36,827 bases of DNA, taken from assembly GCA_947446585.1 (NCBI GenBank), contig CANFGZ010000004.1, forward strand, positions 1-36,827, given 5' to 3'. Positions 1 through 36,040 of the stretch are shown one piece after another (positions within the stretch are counted from its first letter, which is position 1; each line of letters begins with the position of its first letter). Below the pieces are notes generated by a model. That model ran no database searches, was not told where the DNA came from, and saw only the letters and a program-made list of their open reading frames with translations. Source of the stretch: Chitinophagaceae bacterium (GTDB lineage: Bacteria; Bacteroidota; Bacteroidia; Chitinophagales; Chitinophagaceae). A program made the position numbers and the translations under genes.

Positions 1-699
1 GATTTTCTTTCCGGATTTTTCAATGAGACGATCAAAATACATTTGCATCCATGGCGGAATACCGCTTATGAGCGTCATATTCTCATTAATAGTTTCTTCT
101 ACAATTTTATCCAATTTTGTTTCCCAATCTTCGACACAGTTTGTTTCGAAGGAAGGCAATTGGTTGGCTCGTAAATATTTTGGTATATGGTGATTCACAA
201 TTCCACTTAATCTGCCAGTAGGAATACCCCCCACTCTTTCCAATACCGGAGATCCACTTAAAAATATCAGCTTACCATTGGCGAATTCTGTATTTCCAGA
301 TTCTGCCATGTAACAAAGCAAGGCATTGCGAGCAGTATTGATGTGATTGGGTATAGATTCTTTAGTAATTGGAATGTATTTAACGCCGCTTGTTGTTCCG
401 CTTGTTTTAGCTAAATAAATGGGGCGGCCTTTCCATAAAACATTTTGCTTACCCTCTTTTATTTTTTCTATATAAGACTTAAATCCTTCGTAATCACGAA
501 TAGGAACTTGCTTTACAAAATCTTCGTGTGATTGAATATTATTTAAATGATGATCTTTTCCGAAATCAGTTTTAATAGCAGCCTTTATTAAATTCAAAAA
601 GGTTGATTTCTGATCAGCCACAGAACTGAGCATTCCCTTCTTAATCTGCCGATGTATATAGTGAGCAAAAGGTTTTGCCAGTATTGATTTAATCTTCAT
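1..699 (-). CDS. GH3 auxin-responsive-promoter family protein (acyl-adenylate/acyl-amido synthetase-like), C-terminus cut by window edge
   Basis: The minus strand reads open from an ATG at 699 to position 1 (233 codons): MKIKSILAKPFAHYIHRQIKKGML...; ATP-binding-like motif AKTSGTTSGVKYIPIT; ...LISGIPPWMQMYFDRLIEKSGKK. It is absent from the ORF track because its stop lies outside the window. Confidence 0.85.
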   Translation of the reverse strand, partial: MKIKSILAKPFAHYIHRQIKKGMLSSVADQKSTFLNLIKAAIKTDFGKDHHLNNIQSHEDFVKQVPIRDYEGFKSYIEKIKEGKQNVLWKGRPIYLAKTSGTTSGVKYIPITKESIPNHINTARNALLCYMAESGNTEFANGKLIFLSGSPVLERVGGIPTGRLSGIVNHHIPKYLRANQLPSFETNCVEDWETKLDKIVEETINENMTLISGIPPWMQMYFDRLIEKSGKKI

Positions 700-802
700 T
701 TAATTAGTAGAGTATGCTACAAAGGTAGAGATTATATTGTTTATTCGTTGAGTTGTTGAGTTGGGTTTAAGTCAGCGTCTTGAGGTTTAATTTTCAAACT
801 TA

Positions 803-867
803 AACGTTGAACGTTAAACCTTGAACCTTAAACTTTAAAGATTAAACCTTAAACTCAATCACTCAAC
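803..867. repeat. Seven tandem heptamers (803-851), then two reverse-complement octamers (852-867)
   Basis: AACGTTG AACGTTA AACCTTG AACCTTA AACTTTA AAGATTA AACCTTA, then AACTCAAT CACTCAAC. Forward octamers GTTGAGTT x2 lie at 747-762. Confidence 0.8.
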
Positions 868-886
868 AATTTCTTACCTTCGCCCC

Positions 887-2155
887 ATGTCAAAAACCGT
901 CGCTTTACATACATTGGGATGCAAGCTGAATTTCAGCGAAACAACTGCCATTGGACGGTTACTAGAGAATGATGGATTTGAGAAGCGCGATTTTGATGAA
1001 GTAGCCGATTTATATGTAATCAATACTTGCTCAGTCACCGATAATGCAGACAAAGAATGCAGACAATTGGTAAGGCGAATACAGAAAAAAGCACCTGAAG
1101 CGTTGGTAGTCATTACGGGTTGCTATGCTCAGTTAAAGCCAACTGAAATTGCTGCTATACCAGGAGTGAATTTAGTATTGGGAGCAGCAGAAAAATTCAA
1201 TATTACCTCTCATTTAAAAGAACTTACTAAAAACGATTCGGGTAAAATTTGCAGTTGTGATATTGAAGATGTGAATGTTTTTGTTCCATCACATTCCTTA
1301 AAAGAACGCACACGTATTTTTCTTAAAGTACAAGATGGATGTGATTACAATTGCAGCTTCTGTACTATTCCGCTCGCAAGAGGAAAAAGCAGAAGTGAAA
1401 GCATTAACAATGTGCTAGAAAATGTGAAAGAAATAGCTACGGGTGGAGCAAAGGAAATTGTGCTTACTGGAATAAACTTAGGAGATTTTGGAAAAGGATT
1501 TACTGGAGGGAAAAAAAACGAAGAGAATTTTTATGATTTAATGGTTGCCCTTGATCAACAATCATCCATTGAAAGATTCAGGATATCTTCTATAGAACCT
1601 AATCTACTGAGCAATGAAATGATTGAGCTCGTAAGTGCCAGTAAAAAATTCATGCCTCATTTTCATATTCCGCTGCAAAGTGGAAATAATAAAACGTTGG
1701 CTGAAATGCGTAGAAGATACAAAAGGGAGTTATATGCAGAAAAAGTTAGCCTCATTAAATCATTGATGCCCCACGCTTGTATAGGGGTAGATGTGATTGT
1801 AGGCTTTCCTGGAGAAACGGATGAAGACTTTAAAGAAACAGCTCGATTTATAGAATCGATGGATATCTCCTATTTGCATGTATTTACTTATTCAGAAAGA
1901 GACAATACGCATGCACTTGAATTGCATCCTATCGTTCCAATGCAAATACGTCATGAAAGAAATAAAATATTGCGCAATTTGAGTTATGCCAAAATGCAAT
2001 CTTTTACCCAACAGCATATCGGACAAACGCGAAAAGTGTTATTCGAAAGCGTTAATAAGAATGGAATGATGGAAGGATACAGCGACAACTACATCAAGAT
2101 TACGGCGCCTTATAAGAAAGAATGGGAGAATGAAGTATTGGAATGGGTGATATAG
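887..2155 (+). CDS. mtaB: tRNA (N6-L-threonylcarbamoyladenosine(37)-C2)-methylthiotransferase MtaB
   Basis: 422 aa. N-terminal UPF0004-type VALHTLGCKLNFSET, radical-SAM CxxxCxxC in DGCDYNCSFCTIPLARGKSRS, MTTase motifs GINLGDFG and HIPLQSGNNKTLAEMRRRY. Confidence 0.93.
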   Translation: MSKTVALHTLGCKLNFSETTAIGRLLENDGFEKRDFDEVADLYVINTCSVTDNADKECRQLVRRIQKKAPEALVVITGCYAQLKPTEIAAIPGVNLVLGAAEKFNITSHLKELTKNDSGKICSCDIEDVNVFVPSHSLKERTRIFLKVQDGCDYNCSFCTIPLARGKSRSESINNVLENVKEIATGGAKEIVLTGINLGDFGKGFTGGKKNEENFYDLMVALDQQSSIERFRISSIEPNLLSNEMIELVSASKKFMPHFHIPLQSGNNKTLAEMRRRYKRELYAEKVSLIKSLMPHACIGVDVIVGFPGETDEDFKETARFIESMDISYLHVFTYSERDNTHALELHPIVPMQIRHERNKILRNLSYAKMQSFTQQHIGQTRKVLFESVNKNGMMEGYSDNYIKITAPYKKEWENEVLEWVI

Positions 2156-2172
2156 TACTTATCGTTCAAGTC

Positions 2173-2190
2173 GTCTGCCTAATGGCAGAC
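2173..2190. terminator. Candidate hairpin between convergent mtaB and the PHP phosphatase gene
   Basis: GTCTGCC-taat-GGCAGAC, perfect 7-bp stem with 4-nt loop. No clear U-tract, so terminator function is uncertain. Confidence 0.45.
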
Positions 2191-2213
2191 TGGTTCAAAT
2201 CGTTCAACGTGTT

Positions 2214-2241
2214 AAACCCTAAACCTTAAACCTTGAACCTT
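2214..2241. repeat. Four tandem heptamers ending on the stop codon of the PHP phosphatase gene
   Basis: AAACCCT AAACCTT AAACCTT GAACCTT; the stop codon of CDS 2241..2972 occupies 2243-2241. Confidence 0.75.
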
Positions 2242-2972
2242 TAAAAATTCCACTCTCTATGACCAAGGTGTTTTTCAAATAATTTTCTGTTGGAAGGATT
2301 TGTGAGGGCAGCGAGATGACGATCATGATGAAGATCGGTGCCTATGTAGGAGATTAAATCATTTTTTAATAAATATTCAGACACTTTTGCGGCTTCTTTA
2401 CCGTAGTATCCTGTAAGAGATAATATATTTAATTGAAGAGAGAATCCCAACTCAACCAATCGATGAAATGCTTTGTTATTCCCGTAATAATAAGGATACC
2501 TTTCGGGGTGTGCTAAAATTGGCTTATACCCTGCTGTAATAATAGCGAATGAAAACAATCCTGGATCATCGGGCATAGAAGCATAAGAAAATTCCGTGAG
2601 TACAATATTATCTTTTATAGTCAGAAGCTTTTCTTCTTTGCGAAGCAATTCTAGGAAATAACTATCCATCATATATTCGGCAGCAGCCGTTACATCAAAA
2701 GTTATCTCTTGTTTTTTCAATTCATTTTTTAATAATGATAATGCTTTATTGATTGTAGTTGAATCGTTTCGGTATAAATCTGAAATAATATGAGGAGTAG
2801 CCACTGATTTTGTAATGCCTAATTCCATCAACCCTTTAATAAGCGTAATAGAAGTCTCTAGATCAGGAGATCCGTCATCTATACCGGGAAGAATATGAGA
2901 ATGAATGTCATTGGCTATGGGGAAATAGCTACAATCTTCAGCATATTTTTTTTTAGAAAATATTGAAAGCAT
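2241..2972 (-). CDS. PHP-type tyrosine-protein phosphatase (CpsB/CapC/YwqE-like)
   Basis: DIHSHILPGIDDGSPDLETSI, TPHI, ILAHPERYPYY and GTDLHHDRH metal-ligand motifs of the CpsB/CapC family. Confidence 0.9.
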   Translation of the reverse strand: MLSIFSKKKYAEDCSYFPIANDIHSHILPGIDDGSPDLETSITLIKGLMELGITKSVATPHIISDLYRNDSTTINKALSLLKNELKKQEITFDVTAAAEYMMDSYFLELLRKEEKLLTIKDNIVLTEFSYASMPDDPGLFSFAIITAGYKPILAHPERYPYYYGNNKAFHRLVELGFSLQLNILSLTGYYGKEAAKVSEYLLKNDLISYIGTDLHHDRHLAALTNPSNRKLFEKHLGHREWNF

Positions 2973-3756
2973 TTATAAAGAATAGGTTATTGCGATTGAA
3001 GTAAGCACTTGCTTTTTGATATTGATGCAACTTACTCAGAGGCTTAAAAATAGAAACAATAAAAGGGAAAGGAATATTATTGGTTTTCATCGCCAGGTAA
3101 TCTCTTCGATTGGCTCTTATGCGCATTCTTAAATCGTTGTTGCTTTGTCCGCCTCTTCTCATTTTTACAATGAGCTTTGGAAGATAGCATGCACTTGCTT
3201 TAAACTTATACAAATACCTCGACATCAATTCATAATCTGCTGCAGAATAATAGTGATTTTCGTAGCCTCCAAACTTTTTAAAAAGATCAGATTTGAAATA
3301 AAAGGTAGGATGAGCAGGCATCCAACCGATATTGAATAAAGAACGTTTAAACTCTCTGCCCTTCCATATTCTATATACTTCTTGAGTATTTTCTTGTTCT
3401 ACATATTCAAGATCTCCATACACGCAATCAACATGATTATTTTCAAAAGATGCTACAATAGATGCAATCACATCATTTGTATCGAGCATATCATCGCTAT
3501 TCAAAATACCAATCACGTCACCCGTAGCCATCGCCATACCCTTATTGATGGCATCGTACATTCCTTTGTCTGTTTCGGAAATCCAACTAGCAATAGTTGA
3601 TTCGTATTTTTTAATAATGGAAACTGTCCCGTCTGTAGATTTGCCATCTATGATAATGTGTTCAATATCCTGATGGGTTTGATTGGCAATAGAAAGTATG
3701 CAATCTTCCAGATATTTCTCCGAATTGTATGTGGCTGTAATGATGGTTACTTTCAT
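2953..3756 (-). CDS. Glycosyltransferase family 2 (WcaE-like)
   Basis: MKVTIITATYNSEKYLEDCILSIANQTHQDIEHIIIDGKSTDGT, DKGMYDAINKGMAMATGDVIGILNSDD. Confidence 0.92.
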   Translation of the reverse strand: MKVTIITATYNSEKYLEDCILSIANQTHQDIEHIIIDGKSTDGTVSIIKKYESTIASWISETDKGMYDAINKGMAMATGDVIGILNSDDMLDTNDVIASIVASFENNHVDCVYGDLEYVEQENTQEVYRIWKGREFKRSLFNIGWMPAHPTFYFKSDLFKKFGGYENHYYSAADYELMSRYLYKFKASACYLPKLIVKMRRGGQSNNDLRMRIRANRRDYLAMKTNNIPFPFIVSIFKPLSKLHQYQKASAYFNRNNLFFINAFNIF

Positions 3757-3892
3757 CGAAAAAAATTGGATAGTTCGAATAATGCATCATCAATTTAGTT
3801 AAAATTTGTTAAAAAAACACACCGCCAGAAATAAATAATAAATAGTTCATATAGTCAAAATAGAGGAATCTGTTAAATATTATCATTAAATA

Positions 3893-4441
3893 CTATACAG
3901 ATAGTACTCTATCTCTTATTTTTACAGCTGGATTGCCACTATATATCCCAAAAGCATCCAATGAAGAAGTTGCGACCGACCCAACTGAAAGTACCGCATG
4001 AGATTTTATGGTAACTCCCCCGCAAATGGTCGTTTTAGCACCTACCCATGCTCCTTCTTCGATCAAAATGGGCTTTACCATTAAATCGAAGCTTGTTTTT
4101 TTGTAATCATGGTTTCCACATAATAAAAGCGCTCCTTGTGAAATACAAACATTGTCGCCAATAGTTACTGTAGCCAAATTATCAATCCAAACTTGTTCCC
4201 CTATCCAAACATGATTGCCAATTTCCAATAACCAGGGGTATTTAATATTCACATGTGGTTTTATTACTACGCCTTTCCCTATTCTAGCCCCAAATAATTT
4301 CAATAGAAACGTTTTAATAATATAAATAGGAAACAAACCAGATTGAAAGACTATCAGGTTTACATAATACCAAATCAATTTCTTGAGTACGTTGCCAGAA
4401 TGGTATTCTTTATTATTGTATGTAGACAAATCCACTTTCAT
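3893..4441 (-). CDS. wcaF: WcaF-type hexapeptide acetyltransferase
   Basis: Left-handed beta-helix repeats (IGNHVWIGEQVWIDNLATVTIGDNVCISQGALLLCGNHDY) with the WcaF-like N-terminus and GNPAVKIRDR end. Confidence 0.85.
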   Translation of the reverse strand: MKVDLSTYNNKEYHSGNVLKKLIWYYVNLIVFQSGLFPIYIIKTFLLKLFGARIGKGVVIKPHVNIKYPWLLEIGNHVWIGEQVWIDNLATVTIGDNVCISQGALLLCGNHDYKKTSFDLMVKPILIEEGAWVGAKTTICGGVTIKSHAVLSVGSVATSSLDAFGIYSGNPAVKIRDRVLSV

Positions 4442-4502
4442 TGTAAGATATTTAATTGAAACTTATTTAAAATAGTAATAACCTACCAATAGGTATAAAC
4501 AA

Positions 4503-5060
4503 TTATACTTCTGACTGATTAGTATGTTTGGAATTTCTATCAAAAAAATACATCATGATAAAAATAACTAAGTAAGCAAATATATTAAACCAAGTATGAT
4601 GATCGAGTCCTAATGGCATTGGCCATCCTTTATTGATTGCTACTAAAAATAACCCAATGCGAGTGGTGTTGATTACCCACAACATCAACAACCCTCCCAA
4701 TAACCAAAGTAGCTTTTTAACTAGAGGATTGGTAATTGCAATTACAAAAGCTGCCCAAAAACTCATCACCCCATATCCTGCACAACTATAAGAAACAAAT
4801 ACACCTTTGGCATTGACTACTTTTAATAAAAATCCTGGTAAAATTTCTGTTTGATATCCAAACAATGCAGCAATATAAGTTGCGCCGTAAACAAGAGAGT
4901 GTCTTAGCCAACTTACATAATCAACATACTTTTCAATGAATGGAATATAATATCCTCCAGGAGTAGCCAGGCCACTTAGAAACTTTGTTCCATAATAGAA
5001 GGCAAGGAAAAGGACTAAAAATTTTAAGAGGAAGGTATAAAATGGATTAGTGAATTTCAT
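4503..5060 (-). CDS. Exosortase/archaeosortase family protein
   Basis: 185 aa, multiple hydrophobic segments. Conserved Cys/Arg/His triad contexts: VSYSCAGYGVMSFW, WVINTTRIGLF, LDHHTWFNIFAY. Confidence 0.85.
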   Translation of the reverse strand: MKFTNPFYTFLLKFLVLFLAFYYGTKFLSGLATPGGYYIPFIEKYVDYVSWLRHSLVYGATYIAALFGYQTEILPGFLLKVVNAKGVFVSYSCAGYGVMSFWAAFVIAITNPLVKKLLWLLGGLLMLWVINTTRIGLFLVAINKGWPMPLGLDHHTWFNIFAYLVIFIMMYFFDRNSKHTNQSEV

Positions 5061-5072
5061 AGATTGAATACT

Positions 5073-5104
5073 GTTGAGACGTTGAGGCGTTTAGTTGTTG
5101 AGAT
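5073..5104. repeat. Octamer array, 4 units of GTTKAGNY
   Basis: gttgagac gttgaggc gtttagtt gttgagat, in register, just upstream of the exosortase start codon. Confidence 0.75.
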
Positions 5105-5325
5105 AAAAAACCAACCATCAAAATCATATTGCATATAGGTTCTTTTTTAAAAACAATCTTTAATTAAAATTATTATTCAACTTTTGTCTTGACACACGAG
5201 ACGTTCAAAGTTCAACGTTATATTTATTTGAAAGTTAATGATTAATGGAAAATAGAAATTATAAAATAGTATTCAACATTGAACGATTTAAAATCCGTTG
5301 AAACTTATTCGTTGAACATTAAAAC

Positions 5326-6447
5326 TTACACGACACTCCCCCACATCACGTTGTAATCCTGCTTCAACTTTTCCCTATCAATTGCCTTAGCAGCGTATTC
5401 GCCTGCACCAAGAACCCAATGTTGGTAATCATCGTTGTTCATATTTGCAAAAAACTCAATCGCATTTTGCAATTCATTTGTTTCCGGATTAACATTTAAA
5501 CCAGCGTGATGATGTTTTAAATTCAGCCAAGGAGTTCCAAAAGAAGTAATAACAGGCTTTCCTACAGACAGTGCTTCATAAATAGAGTGCCCAAAATTTT
5601 CGCTTTTACTTGGTAGTATGGCAATATGTGACCTTTCAAGAAATGGCGTCATTTCTGTTGGCTCCACTTCTCCATGATACACTACGTTTATATTAGAAGG
5701 CAATTGTTTGATTTGTTGCAAACACTCCTCCCAATAGGAATGATCTTTGATAGCGCCACAAATATGGTATTCGATGTGTGCACTAGAATGTTGTAAAGAT
5801 TTTAATACTAATAAATAATTCTTCATTGGGCTAATCAATGCAATACTCACCATAGAAAGCGAGTGCGCATTTTTTTGTAATGGAGCACTTGTAATGAGTT
5901 TGTTGGGGAAATTTCCTGCTATTATTATTCTAGCTGTTATTCCCATTTGATACTTGACGTATTGCTCTTCTATTTCATCTGTTACATGAAAGAAAGTATT
6001 TTTTTGAATATTAAGCAGATTTAATAACGATAGATATAATTTCTTCTTCCATTTCTTTTGCGATAGTGCTCCGGGGTGCATCATGCCTCTTACTGAAAGA
6101 ATCTTTTTGGGAGCTTTACAAAACAACAAAGGAATGATGTTGAATTTTAGCGAATAAATACCCACAATATAAAGTACATCAGGAGCATTGTCTTTCATTA
6201 AACTACGAATAGAAGAAAGCGTGTTCCATTTGCTAGTATACCAAACTGATGTATTGTCATTGTATTTCACCCATTGATCAATAGCTACATCTGTGAGCAC
6301 TGTTCCATCCACATCATTGTTGCTACATAGTATTTGATAAGATATATTTTCATAGTATTGATTCACCATATTAACCAATGACTGAACAGGGCCTCCTGCT
6401 CTAAATGCAGGAGCAAACCAAGGTGTTATAATGAATACTTTTATCAA
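5326..6447 (-). CDS. Glycosyltransferase family 4
   Basis: FIITPWFAPAFRAGGPVQSLVNM N-terminus; C-terminal ILPSKSENFGHSIYEALSVGKPVITSFGTPW. 4-bp overlap with the upstream gene. Confidence 0.9.
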   Translation of the reverse strand: MIKVFIITPWFAPAFRAGGPVQSLVNMVNQYYENISYQILCSNNDVDGTVLTDVAIDQWVKYNDNTSVWYTSKWNTLSSIRSLMKDNAPDVLYIVGIYSLKFNIIPLLFCKAPKKILSVRGMMHPGALSQKKWKKKLYLSLLNLLNIQKNTFFHVTDEIEEQYVKYQMGITARIIIAGNFPNKLITSAPLQKNAHSLSMVSIALISPMKNYLLVLKSLQHSSAHIEYHICGAIKDHSYWEECLQQIKQLPSNINVVYHGEVEPTEMTPFLERSHIAILPSKSENFGHSIYEALSVGKPVITSFGTPWLNLKHHHAGLNVNPETNELQNAIEFFANMNNDDYQHWVLGAGEYAAKAIDREKLKQDYNVMWGSVV

Positions 6448-7884: not shown

Positions 7885-8090
7885 TGCCTTTTTGGTTGTC
7901 CAAAAGAGCTTAGAATCAGCAATACTCGCTATTACGGAAAAGGCTTCTAAAACTTAACAAGTTGTTTTAAAATTGTGATTTTATTAATGCCTTTTTGCTT
8001 GTCCAAAAAAGCTTAAAATCAGCAATACCCGCTATTACGGAAAATGTTTCTAAATCTTAGCAAGTTGTTTTAAAATTGTGATTTTATTAA
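7885..8090. repeat. Two tandem copies of a 103-bp repeat (7885-7987, 7988-8090), with a partial third copy starting at 8091
   Basis: Both copies run TGCCTTTTTGsTTGTCCAAAA...TTTTAAAATTGTGATTTTATTAA, with about 8 mismatches over 103 bp by eye. About 22 bp recur at 8091. Confidence 0.85.
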
Positions 8091-8092
8091 TG

Positions 8093-8411
8093 CCTTTTTG
8101 CTTGTCCAAAAAGGCAAACAAAAAGGACCCCGCCATCGATTGCCAGCCCGATGGCGGCTGGTTCCTTGATTTAGCTTTAAAACATACCGTCAACTTGAAA
8201 TCAATTTGATTTTTTGTTTATTGGCGTTTTGCCTAGCACTCGACAACCTTGGTACAATGTTTATTATTGATACCGTTCGCTTGCCAGCATAACGAACAAA
8301 AAGCGAAGCCAATGAAGGTATGTGCGCCTGCCTGCTTTTTGGAGTGGTGACCGAAGGGCAATGCCTTAAGCGAACTTGATTTTTTGCGTCCTTTTTGATC
8401 AAGCAAAAAGG
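8093..8411. repeat. 319-bp segment bounded by 22-bp near-perfect inverted repeats (MITE-like candidate)
   Basis: Left end CCTTTTTGCTTGTCCAAAAAGG (8093-8114); right end CCTTTTTGATCAAGCAAAAAGG (8390-8411). The left end's reverse complement matches the right end at 20 of 22 positions. No obvious target-site duplication. Confidence 0.55.
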
Positions 8412-8497: not shown

Positions 8498-9721
8498 TTA
8501 ATCGAATTTAGACAAACCGATATTCATTGACAACACTGACTTCTCTATAATTTCAGCTAAATAATTTTGATTAAAAGGAGAAATTTTATTGAGAGAAACG
8601 TCTCCCATTTGTTTGACTAATGAAGGGTTATTGCAAAATTCCTGCATTTTATTAAACAAATCATTTTCAACACCCGATTTAAATACAAAACCATTTTTGC
8701 CTTGCTCAATAAGATCGGGTGCACACCCTACTTTATCACTTACTATCATAGCTTTTCCGCAAGTCATCGCTTCATTCACCGCCAATCCCCAGGTTTCACC
8801 GGGGCCTTGTGAGGGTAATACGAATACATCTGCTAAGCGATAGACAATGGGCATCATTGATTGGTTTTGGAAAGGAAGGAAGATGATGTTGAGTTGTTGA
8901 GTTGTTGAGTTGTTGAGTTGTGTAATTTTAGATAGATCAACTAAATTATCTTTAAGTATGCCGTCTCCAACGAAAATCAAATGACAATCGTGTCTTGTTT
9001 CACTCAACTGCTTGAATGCTTTGATTAATAGCTCAGGATTTTTTTTGGATTCTAATTTTCCGGCAAATAAAAAAACTAAATCATTTTCTTTAATACCTAA
9101 ATCTAATCGCCATTGAGATGCACGCTGATTATATTCTCCTGTTAAATCAACAAAACGATTATTGTCTACCACATGCGGCGCATAAATCAATTGATTTTCT
9201 TTGATGTTATATTGTTTAAAATATTGTCGATTGTTCTCCCCCACATACAATGCATAATCAATGTTTCGATAAACCCATTTTAGCACTATATTTTTAATAA
9301 TAGATTTAAAGAAAGACGGAGAATCAAGTAAAGTAGAGTCGCCTCTAAAAAATAGAGGGATTTTATTTCTAAAATATCGCAAGCACGACAAATGAGCAGA
9401 ATAGCTCCATCCATATACTAACAATGCATCAGGCTGCCAGTTTTTGATTTGCTCATTTAGATCCCGACATTGAATGCCCTTAAAATGATGAGAACCTGGA
9501 TGCTTAGATATGGTTTCTAAAAACTGATATTCATACCCTTCTAACAACGGAATATCCCATTGAATAGATTTACCAAAACCAGGATCATATTTATCTTTTA
9601 AAACCGATTCTCCCCAAGTATAAAAAACTTTAATGGAAATAATCGCTCTCTCGCTTAGTAAACGAAACAAAGGGGCGTTGTACTGAATGGGATGAGTAGT
9701 GACAATAGCTAATTTTTTCAT
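8498..9721 (-). CDS. Glycosyltransferase family 4
   Basis: KKLAIVTTHPIQYNAPLFRLL; LVFLFAGKLESKKNPELLIKAF; VFVLPSQGPGETWGLAVNEAMTCGKAMIVSDKVGCAPDLI. Confidence 0.92.
   Translation of the reverse strand: MKKLAIVTTHPIQYNAPLFRLLSERAIISIKVFYTWGESVLKDKYDPGFGKSIQWDIPLLEGYEYQFLETISKHPGSHHFKGIQCRDLNEQIKNWQPDALLVYGWSYSAHLSCLRYFRNKIPLFFRGDSTLLDSPSFFKSIIKNIVLKWVYRNIDYALYVGENNRQYFKQYNIKENQLIYAPHVVDNNRFVDLTGEYNQRASQWRLDLGIKENDLVFLFAGKLESKKNPELLIKAFKQLSETRHDCHLIFVGDGILKDNLVDLSKITQLNNSTTQQLNIIFLPFQNQSMMPIVYRLADVFVLPSQGPGETWGLAVNEAMTCGKAMIVSDKVGCAPDLIEQGKNGFVFKSGVENDLFNKMQEFCNNPSLVKQMGDVSLNKISPFNQNYLAEIIEKSVLSMNIGLSKFD
8888..8919. repeat. In-gene octamer array (GTTGAGTT)x4 inside GT4 8498..9721
   Basis: gttgagtt gttgagtt gttgagtt gttgagtt; the coding strand reads TQLNNSTTQQLNII without breaking the frame. 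Confidence 0.9.
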
Positions 9722-11414: not shown

Positions 11415-12734
11415 TTATGAATGAATAGGTTTTGAATCATGAAGTGCCACTAATAAATCGGCCAAATATGCTGTGATTTTTTTAGCAGAAAATTTCTCAA
11501 AATCTGCCATCTCAATATTGTTTGGGTTATAATCAGTTTGAAATGTTAAAAAGTCCTGCAAGAAATCGATGAAACGATGCCCAATAGAATGAACATCAGG
11601 TTCTCCATTAAAATCAAACACTAATCCTGCATTTGTACTTCTCAACACTTCTACTGCAGAACTATATTTATGCAAAACTGCCATAACAGGCTTTTTACTA
11701 AGAACTGCTTGAAAGGCTTTGGAAGGAGTATAATGTGGCTCTGTGCTACCCAATATAAAAACAGCATCAGCAATATTTAAATGGGTTAAAACGTCTAAAT
11801 AAGGAATACGTTTGGGATATTCAAATACGATTGTATTCCACAAACTGTATTTTTCAGCTAATGACTTGATGTTATAACTTTCAGGATCGTTGGGTCGGCT
11901 GCCGGTTCCAATGAAATGGAATTCTATTTTCTGTTGAGGTGTTGAGTTGTTGAGGTGTTGAGAAAGAGATTTGAATATTTCCTCTAAAAGAAGATAGGCC
12001 TTTGGTAACATGGCGCCGGCATAAACAAACTGAATCACCCCTGCTTTCTTTTGAAATAAATATGGCTGTAAATTCAATCTCTTAACAGCCTCATGATCTG
12101 ACGACTCCCCACCATAAGGCATGGCACCAAATTTACAAGTACCTTTTAAATGAGGATTTCGATCAATAACAGACCGATAATACCCCTCAGCAACTCCAGT
12201 AATAAGAGAAGCTTTTTTAACAGCAATGGGTTCTAAAAATTTAGCCAACTGAGTACTCCACCAATGTCGAGAAAAAAACTTATTAGAACCAGGGAATTGA
12301 TGCACCCAGGGATCAACATAATCAATTCCATAGCGTACACCCGTTTTTCGATGAAGGTATCGGCCTATTAAAGCCGTATAAAAAGAAGGAACAATGATAT
12401 AAACGAAATCAATCTTCTCTAATTGAATCAACTCCAGTGCTTTTTTACGTAATTGAAAAAAACCACGTAGTCCAATATCTCCAATCAGTCTCGGCTTAGT
12501 TACAGAAAAAGCATTCACTTTTTCTATTCTTTGATTATTTGGAATTAGCTTATGCAAGTTCCAATCTAAATTTTCCTCATAATACTTTTCATGTACTGTT
12601 AAAATAATAGGCTCCCAACCAAAGGAAGACAAATGTTGAGCAAACAATCTTGCTCTATGAACAGCAGCCAAGTTAGATGGTGGGTAATGAGGAGATATGA
12701 GGAGGATTTTTTTCAATTTAGTAAGGCTTCCCAT
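11415..12734 (-). CDS. Glycosyltransferase family 4-like
   Basis: KKILLISPHYPPSNLAAVHRARLFAQHLSSFGWEPIILT; FVYAGAMLPKAYLLLEEIF; HFIGTGSRPNDPES. Confidence 0.85.
   Translation of the reverse strand: MGSLTKLKKILLISPHYPPSNLAAVHRARLFAQHLSSFGWEPIILTVHEKYYEENLDWNLHKLIPNNQRIEKVNAFSVTKPRLIGDIGLRGFFQLRKKALELIQLEKIDFVYIIVPSFYTALIGRYLHRKTGVRYGIDYVDPWVHQFPGSNKFFSRHWWSTQLAKFLEPIAVKKASLITGVAEGYYRSVIDRNPHLKGTCKFGAMPYGGESSDHEAVKRLNLQPYLFQKKAGVIQFVYAGAMLPKAYLLLEEIFKSLSQHLNNSTPQQKIEFHFIGTGSRPNDPESYNIKSLAEKYSLWNTIVFEYPKRIPYLDVLTHLNIADAVFILGSTEPHYTPSKAFQAVLSKKPVMAVLHKYSSAVEVLRSTNAGLVFDFNGEPDVHSIGHRFIDFLQDFLTFQTDYNPNNIEMADFEKFSAKKITAYLADLLVALHDSKPIHS
11933..11962. repeat. In-gene octamer array (GTTGAGKT)x3.75 inside GT4 11415..12734
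   Basis: gttgaggt gttgagtt gttgaggt gttgag; the coding strand reads SLSQHLNNSTPQQK. Confidence 0.88.
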
Positions 12735-33691: not shown

Positions 33692-33854
33692 ATTGAGGTG
33701 TTTAGTCGTTTAGCTGTTGAGACGTTTAGTTGTTGAATTGATTAACGATATTTGGTAGTCGGTAAATAATATTTAATTTTTTGGAGTCCGTTAAATTATT
33801 GATCTGCAAATTTATAGTGACGAATCAACGAATCAACAACTAAACAAATCAACA
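33692..33854. repeat. Two opposed octamer arrays: six GTTKAGNY-type units (33692-33739) and four units in reverse complement (33823-33854)
   Basis: attgaggt gtttagtc gtttagct gttgagac gtttagtt gttgaatt ... aatcaacg aatcaaca actaaaca aatcaaca, in register at 8-nt spacing. Confidence 0.72.
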
Positions 33855-33871
33855 AGCGAAATTTTTCGCCG

Positions 33872-34750: not shown

Positions 34751-34874
34751 GTTTAAGGTTTAAGGTTTAAGGTTTAACGTTCAAATCGTTCAACGAGAAA
34801 TATTAGTACTATAAAATCAAAGTAAAGAAATGTATTTGATGCGTTGAACCTTGAACCATTGAACCACTTAAACC
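34751..34874. repeat. Opposed heptamer arms: GTTTAAG x3, GTTTAAC, GTTCAAA, tcGTTCAACG (34751-34795) and CGTTGAACCTTGAACC...CTTAAACC (34842-34874)
   Basis: Direct reading. The 8-mer GTTCAACG is the exact reverse complement of CGTTGAAC in the other arm. Confidence 0.72.
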
Positions 34875-36040
34875 AATAAGGCTTCTTCCAACCGCCTCTT
34901 ATACTCATCATACCCAAAGCTTTCCATCAACAATTCCTCATTAGGTAGATATTTGTTTTTATCATTTAATATATTATCAATGGCAATTTCAATTTCATTG
35001 GTATCTAATGGATTCACTAAAGTTCCTAATGCGCCATTTATAAGTGCATCAACAGACCCATCCATATTTCCTGCAATAACAGGAAGACCATAATGCATCG
35101 CTTCAATGAATACAATCCCAAATCCTTCTTTTATACTAGGCATTACATATAAATCGGCTAGAGAAAAGTGTGCATCCAGCTCCTCCTCTGAAACAAATCC
35201 TGGAACCACTACAAAATCCTTTAATCCATGATGAGCAATTAATTGATCTAGATATTGTTTTTCTTGTGAATCGTATTTACCAGCTAACAAATAACGTAAT
35301 TGCGGATGCCTAGGTATTAAATTAACCATTGCTTCTATCACCCTGTCATATCCTTTATATCTTTCTTTGGATGAAATACGTGTAAGGGTAAGCATAACCT
35401 TTTGGTCATTTGTAAACCCATATTTCATTCTAATATTATCTTCATTTACAACACTACTTATATTTGGAATAAATGGATCTAAACAATTATTGATCACCTT
35501 GCATTTCAAAGGATCAATTTGTTGATTCTCCTGTAATTTCATGGAAGTAAATTGACTAACCGAAACGAATGTGTCAATGGATGTAAGCATCATTTTCTGA
35601 ATCCAACTCAACTTACCCCACACTTCTATTCCATGAGCAATCAAAATAATTTTAGCAGAAGGATTAATGAGTTTAATCATACGTCCAACCAACAACAAAT
35701 TAATATGACTAAGAACAATATGATTTTTTTTTCTTCCCATCCAAATAGCTTCTACAATAAATTTCATTTTGCTTTTGCCAAACCCTTTAAATATATCTGA
35801 AGTGAAATAACGATTGTCATCAGCATCTTCTTGCTGATCATACATTGACAATACTCGAATAGTTGCTTTTTCTTCTACCGAAAAAGAATAAATAGCCTTT
35901 CCTATAACCTTGCATACTTTCTCTATACCTCCGGTTGCGGAGAAAACTTTTAATGTAAGGAAGAGTATGTTTTTTTTGGGTTTAATAGGTTTCAGGGGTT
36001 TCAGAAGTTTAAAATGTTTTTTTAAGGGTTTTTCATTCAA
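34868..36040 (-). CDS. Glycosyltransferase family 4 with a repeat-built N-terminus
   Basis: ILFLTLKVFSATGGIEKVCKVIGKAI; VMLTLTRISSKERYKGYDRVIEAM; LADLYVMPSIKEGFGIVFIEAMHYGLPVIAGNMDGS. N-terminus MNEKPLKKHFKLLKPLKPIKPKK. Confidence 0.93.
   Translation of the reverse strand: MNEKPLKKHFKLLKPLKPIKPKKNILFLTLKVFSATGGIEKVCKVIGKAIYSFSVEEKATIRVLSMYDQQEDADDNRYFTSDIFKGFGKSKMKFIVEAIWMGRKKNHIVLSHINLLLVGRMIKLINPSAKIILIAHGIEVWGKLSWIQKMMLTSIDTFVSVSQFTSMKLQENQQIDPLKCKVINNCLDPFIPNISSVVNEDNIRMKYGFTNDQKVMLTLTRISSKERYKGYDRVIEAMVNLIPRHPQLRYLLAGKYDSQEKQYLDQLIAHHGLKDFVVVPGFVSEEELDAHFSLADLYVMPSIKEGFGIVFIEAMHYGLPVIAGNMDGSVDALINGALGTLVNPLDTNEIEIAIDNILNDKNKYLPNEELLMESFGYDEYKRRLEEALLV

Follow-up and report, generated by a model that had tools for sequence, protein, structure and literature searches.

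How does an octamer repeat that also lies in intergenic gaps come to sit inside an intact glycosyltransferase gene, and does a unit length that is not a multiple of three turn that gene into a switch? The question is raised by the window, by which we mean the whole 36,827-nt stretch of DNA analysed here. The original prediction placed four perfect GTTGAGTT units at 8888-8919 within a GT4 gene, and they are there: TRF delimits the array as 8887-8921, with 4.4 copies, 100% matches and no mismatch. The 16-mer (GTTGAGTT)2 occurs four times in the window and in none of 100 dinucleotide-preserving shuffles. A second in-gene array, at 11932-11962, had been overlooked. The two arrays and their host genes are as follows.

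8498..9721, minus strand: ORF of 407 aa encoding GT1, a GT4-type glycosyltransferase (Glycos_transf_1) and host of the first array
8887..8921, minus strand: octamer array within GT1, reading (AACTCAAC)4.4 on the coding strand and translated as TQLNNSTTQQLN, an insertion relative to 28 orthologues
11415..12734, minus strand: ORF with orthologues encoding GT2, a glycosyltransferase-like protein and host of the second array
11932..11962, minus strand: second in-gene octamer array, with plus-strand units GTTGAGGT/GTTGAGTT, encoding SQHLNNSTPQQ, a gain of three residues relative to 27 orthologues

GT1 matches the Pfam family Glycos_transf_1 with an E-value of 6.8e-35 and 120.6 bits, above the curated cut-off of 26.4. 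TQLNNSTTQQLN corresponds to codons 267-278, the array itself being placed at codon 268 of 407. Orthologues of GT1 are present in 54 of 93 genus genomes and those of GT2 in 33 of 93. When these were aligned, the GT1 stretch spanning the array was 4-11 residues longer than in all 28 usable orthologues, which make only a short turn there (LEQELKEKFKSV-KNLHF, for example) in place of the LKDNLVDLSKITQLNNSTTQQLNIIF of the window protein. None of them encodes the array residues in other codons. Loop length at this site naturally varies by several residues among orthologues. A family-wide search found no orthologue closer than 56%, and GT1 was not found in the related genomes G285, G288 and G297; because the nearest orthologue stands at only 56%, the insertion is read in the protein and not at the DNA level.

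The array sites of both GT1 and GT2 fall in a turn that leads from the end of a helix to the next strand in the GT-B C-terminal domain. In Rossmann-like folds, helix-to-strand turns lie on the face opposite the nucleotide pocket. Structure prediction of GT1 with its window paralogues gave a mean pLDDT of 50, too weak for a fold search; read for secondary structure only, this low-confidence model has the array residues cover the end of a helix (263-272) together with the turn that precedes a strand (279-283). The alignment supports the view that GT1 gained its array residues in its own lineage, at a surface turn.

GT2 lies in the same gene cluster as GT1, a single polysaccharide locus, and both ORFs are intact. 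Its Glycos_transf_1 score, 25.8 bits, is just under the cut-off of 26.4, and it had no match in the PDB even at an E-value of 1. It is exactly three residues longer than each of 27 usable orthologues (27/27), which are mutually gap-free at the site. This net gain of 9 nt does not correspond to whole octamers, and the array therefore partly replaced older sequence. Neither in-gene array is surrounded by an RNA hairpin or an inverted repeat.

We then consider what the repeat encodes. Translation of all frames bears out the earlier claim that the AACTCAAC strand is stop-free: whichever of the three frames is read, (AACTCAAC)n yields one and the same polar octapeptide cycle, NSTTQQLN, because 8 and 3 are coprime. 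On the opposite strand, (GTTGAGTT)n, stop codons interrupt each of the three frames. Accordingly, every GTTGAGTT array found within an ORF of a named genome is in the AAC sense (15/15), some of these ORFs being short and uncertain.

Outside genes, the window holds both octamer and heptamer arrays, several of them in inverted pairs.

747..762, plus strand: two perfect octamers in tandem in a gap, forming the left arm of an inverted structure; other sequence replaces this arm in the sister genome G297
799..886, strand not assigned: heptamer array in a gap, of the CTTAAAC/GTTGAAC type and with AACTCAATCACTCAAC at its end, which folds with the 747 arm (z -3.8)
2156..2241, strand not assigned: heptamer array with a terminator-like hairpin between convergent genes (z -5.3), equal in length in G285 and G297
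5073..5103, plus strand: intergenic degenerate octamer array, equal in length in G285 (one substitution) and G297 (identical)
33699..33737, plus strand: intergenic degenerate octamer array, GTT arm
33823..33855, minus strand: inverted partner array (AAC arm) of 33699-33737
34751..34781, plus strand: intergenic heptamer array GTTTAAG, GTT arm
34844..34875, minus strand: inverted partner (TTGAACC) of 34751-34781, overlapping the end of the ORF at 34868..36040

The same octamer had been reported in three gaps. This holds in perfect form at 747-762 only, whereas 5073-5104 and 33692-33739 contain degenerate relatives (GTTGAGAC, GTTGAGGC, GTTTAGTT and GTTTAGTC). The heptamer arrays of the GTTTAAG/GTTGAAC type at 799-854, 2212-2241 and 34751-34781 had gone unremarked, as had the inverted partner arrays at 33823-33855 and 34844-34875. 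RNA folding of the window gaps gave z-scores of -3.8 and -5.3 at two of them and was weak or absent at the remainder; at the second, the gap between convergent genes at 2156-2240, a GTCTGCC/GGCAGAC hairpin adjoins the heptamer array. Separately, the long gap before the GT4 gene contains a 103-bp direct repeat at 7885-8112, in 2.2 copies that are 93% identical.

Comparison across genomes places the window arrays among degenerate 7/8-nt tandem arrays that occur mainly in Bacteroidota, are mostly intergenic and have a genome-specific unit. Their tandem units, within the range of 5-11 nt, exceed chance, and the unit is dispersed at many, mostly intergenic, sites. Arrays of at least three GTTGARNN units were found in 15 of 93 genus genomes, each with its own preferred unit (GTTGAATT in G235, GTTGAGGA and GTTGAATC in G201, GTTGAAGG in G209). 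The exact trimer (GTTGAGTT)3 was found in none of 198 family genomes; with one genome per species, it was found in at least 110 stretches, mostly from Bacteroidota with scattered members of other phyla. Phage carriage was considered as well, but the trimer was found in only three viral contigs. Arrays for which a GTT/AAC direction could be assigned lie inside called ORFs in 29 cases and near gene edges in 242, in DNA that is 84-89% coding; the arrays avoid genes. The same variant units recur at unrelated loci, which suggests copying beyond what slippage alone gives.

The window octamer was not found elsewhere in the 2.35-Mb bin (G000), and the window's heptamer occurs there only on the window's own contig (C4) and once on C187. 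The other bin contigs instead carry a heptamer GTTTGGN, with 36 three-unit matches on about 18 contigs (for example L025:9439-9492) and none on C4. The bin also holds a second MtaB, in two parts on C80 and C119 that are 91% and 80% identical to the window MtaB, a protein with one orthologue in nearly every other genus member searched, and a syntenic copy of the locus on C80, C119 and C41 with 62-78% DNA identity to the window. The window MtaB is 99% identical to that of G297 over 372 residues, positions 1-5410 share 96-98% DNA identity with G297 and G285, and GTTGAGTT-type arrays are present in G297, G285 and the next relative, G288. These sequence comparisons indicate that the contig is almost certainly mis-binned. 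Given the identity to G297 and G285, the bin's own copy of the locus and the different bin repeat, the window derives from a G297-like Chitinophagaceae species with the repeat. The original prediction made enrichment in the rest of the genome a test of the repeat family; in the bin the octamer nominally fails it, but the contig is mis-binned and its true relatives carry the repeat. A genome-specific repeat unit is thus a signature of contig ownership, and here it helped to expose a mis-binned contig.

The same observations (the second MtaB on C80/C119, the syntenic locus on C41 and the different repeat unit) could be taken to mean that the arrays are themselves an artefact of assembly or binning. 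We regard this as next to negligible in probability: mis-binning affects ownership and not sequence, arrays of 31-35 bp fit within one short read, neither ORF is disrupted, and the sister genomes' own assemblies hold the same repeat.

Comparison of sister genomes also indicates how the arrays change. In two gaps, G285 and G297 differ by exactly 8 nt. One of these gaps lies upstream of a secreted-protein gene that both genomes have, and its flanks are 99% identical; the other adjoins a shared 757-aa gene, at 96% identity, and there the difference is confined to one of the two arms. Near 5300, a heptamer site shows differences of 21 and 7 nt among the window and the sister genomes. The 5073 and 2212 arrays have equal lengths in the window, G285 and G297. 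Whole-unit copy-number change is therefore seen in gap arrays, which the comparison covers, rather than in the in-gene array; slippage is the natural reading of these changes and probably their molecular cause. Between species, no orthologous gap array differs by more than one unit and several are equal in length; units turn over slowly, on the time scale of species divergence.

The original prediction suggested that the octamers in the GT4 gene form a possible contingency switch. Extended to both host genes, such a phase-variation switch would let slippage toggle GT1 and GT2 and so vary a surface polysaccharide. An 8-nt unit shifts the frame, and a change of one or two units in either direction would end translation a little beyond the array, leaving products of 283-313 aa from GT1 and 264-289 aa from GT2; a switch is therefore possible in principle. 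The presence of arrays in two genes of a single polysaccharide locus, and the single-unit changes seen in gaps, speak for it. However, the arrays have only about four copies and lie two thirds of the way into the gene (codon 268 of 407 in GT1), the frames of GT1 and GT2 are both intact, the 5073 and 2212 gap arrays are unchanged in length between species in keeping with the slow gap turnover, and like arrays lie in housekeeping or essential enzymes (RadA, LigA and Mfd). The switch thus fares poorly, and we judge it very unlikely.

Pfam identifies several array hosts in other genomes as familiar enzymes. RadA of Candidatus Colimorpha pelethequi has exactly 8 added residues (24 nt, three octamers) relative to the solved RadA 5lkm. 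A SpoU-family rRNA methylase has extra residues at its octamer array, and LigA, the NAD-dependent DNA ligase, has a net gain of 10 residues at its array. The octapeptide is also present in Mfd; there phmmer aligns the array region without a gap, and Mfd is accordingly counted as a peptide carrier rather than as a case of demonstrated insertion. LigA is essential in bacteria generally, and the common denominator of the hosts is therefore tolerance and not switching.

A further possibility is that the loop is selected because it alters the enzyme, for example in partner binding or solubility. Its occurrence in two glycosyltransferases of one locus, both at helix-to-strand turns, would fit such a role. 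Yet the DNA repeat dictates the peptide, the same peptide appears in unrelated enzymes, and the loop was found in no orthologue, all of which make selection for it highly improbable. The added peptide is most likely near-neutral.

We therefore favour, as the likely explanation, lineage-specific degenerate short tandem repeats that have grown by slippage in gaps and that occasionally persist in genes as tolerated, stop-free loops in surface turns. The family would share a core of GTTKAR plus one or two variable bases, with a period of 7 or 8. Its arrays would lengthen and shorten by whole units, probably through replication slippage, mainly in intergenic gaps, where selection would keep most of them. 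Occasionally an array may arise in, or be copied into, a gene, either by slippage from a chance seed or by copying from another locus. Only arrays in the AAC sense would survive there, (AACTCAAC)n being stop-free and its complement having stops in all frames. The survivors would occupy surface turns, in this case the turns that lead from helix to strand in two glycosyltransferases. The earlier proposal of a repeat family that expands in gaps and is tolerated in exposed loops agrees with this, given the unit changes in gaps and the arrays in other Bacteroidota protein genes.

The arrays also show a marked polarity around genes. Where arrays of opposite direction lie no more than 250 bp apart, they are in the order GTT...AAC in 40 of 43 cases, from several genomes; the paired arms often differ in sequence. 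Just downstream of genes, GTT in the sense of the gene predominates (94 versus 40, 70%), and just upstream AAC predominates (84 versus 24, 78%). The loci counted were the window gaps, L019-L038, L134-L213 and L247-L286, picked for containing arrays, and the gene calls were mechanical (ORFs of at least 90 aa with ATG starts). The rule is identical when read from either strand and is therefore not a labelling artefact. Background trinucleotides outside the arrays, pooled, are skewed in the same direction but more weakly (54% GTT downstream, 58% AAC upstream), so that simple composition, considered as a cause, explains only part of the polarity. Tentatively, and with no great confidence, we suggest that 7/8-mer arrays with GTT after the stop and AAC before the start may act at gene boundaries, while their stop-free strand may recurrently seed frame-invariant octapeptide loops, including in essential enzymes, in many Bacteroidota.

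Such a fixed polarity of inverted pairs (40/43), together with the same variant units at unrelated loci and the replacement of the 747 arm relative to G297, would also fit a reading of the arrays as small mobile elements, resembling MITEs or Rickettsia palindromic elements and transposing as units with an enzyme supplied in trans; the Rickettsia elements are a precedent for in-frame insertion (PMC10969869). Against this, the in-gene arrays lack an inverted partner, ends and any flank outside the repeat, and the arms of a pair are often unlike in sequence. Defined ends, inverted terminal repeats and target-site duplications were looked for at the in-gene copies and not found, the repeat alone having been added. 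The gap changes are of whole units, as from slippage, and the repeat is rare in viral contigs. Transposition is thus an unlikely origin, and growth by slippage with tolerated entry into genes is still preferred.

Several known systems resemble this family in part. Haemophilus influenzae has tetranucleotide repeats that act as phase-variable coding repeats. The window arrays share with phase-variable coding repeats (PMC2651432) a tandem unit that is not a multiple of 3 in a surface-polysaccharide gene, and differ from them in having few copies, a position deep in the gene and housekeeping hosts elsewhere, frequent length change being unsupported. TAACTGA heptamer direct repeats are known from Beggiatoaceae, Cyanobacteria and five Bacteroidetes (PMC4679880). 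Like the window arrays, they are dispersed 7-nt tandem arrays, mostly intergenic, with one small set inside a purC gene, and they lie in the AAC sense just upstream of starts, with one described case reversed downstream of a stop (PMC4679880); unlike them, they are one fixed heptamer that is rarely genic, whereas the window family has an octamer in which some bases vary, its unit differs from genome to genome, and in-frame coding arrays recur. The long simple sequence repeats and the GGGAATC and GGGGA(C/T)T heptamer repeats of Xanthomonas and Nostoc likewise include genome-specific heptamer arrays, mostly intergenic and variable in length between related genomes, but they are G-rich and quadruplex-forming, which the window arrays are not, and a frame-invariant peptide is not described in the sections consulted (PMC4692102). 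Rickettsia palindromic elements (PMC10969869) and intragenic enterobacterial small mobile sequences (PMC2759123) are intergenic repeats or mobile sequences also found in frame inside unrelated genes whose proteins presumably work; these elements are about 100-170 bp long with ends, whereas the window case is a bare tandem array of 8-nt units. By the features tested, and within what these sources report, the window arrays belong with the long simple sequence and heptamer repeats of Cyanobacteria, Beggiatoaceae and Xanthomonas.

No published Bacteroidota octamer family was found in the literature searched, which does not in itself prove its absence. Within that literature, the Bacteroidota octamer, its frame-invariant peptide, its recurrent in-frame presence in housekeeping genes and the strength of the polarity rule are new. 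Since stop-free units of 7 or 8 nt give one fixed peptide in all frames, non-coding DNA can enter genes without breaking them, and the repeated cases in one phylum (RadA, LigA and the glycosyltransferases) make the tolerance of proteins to loop insertion directly measurable.

Two minor observations concern host proteins in other genomes. In the RadA of Ca. Colimorpha (L176:4056-5441), another repeat-like stretch, STNQHLNKSTPQQNSS, follows the zinc ribbon. A Bacteroidales protein (L183:37-187) has the octapeptide as part of a larger tandem repeat (YNNSTTQQLNNSTEVDKLG), the octamer array being embedded in the longer unit.
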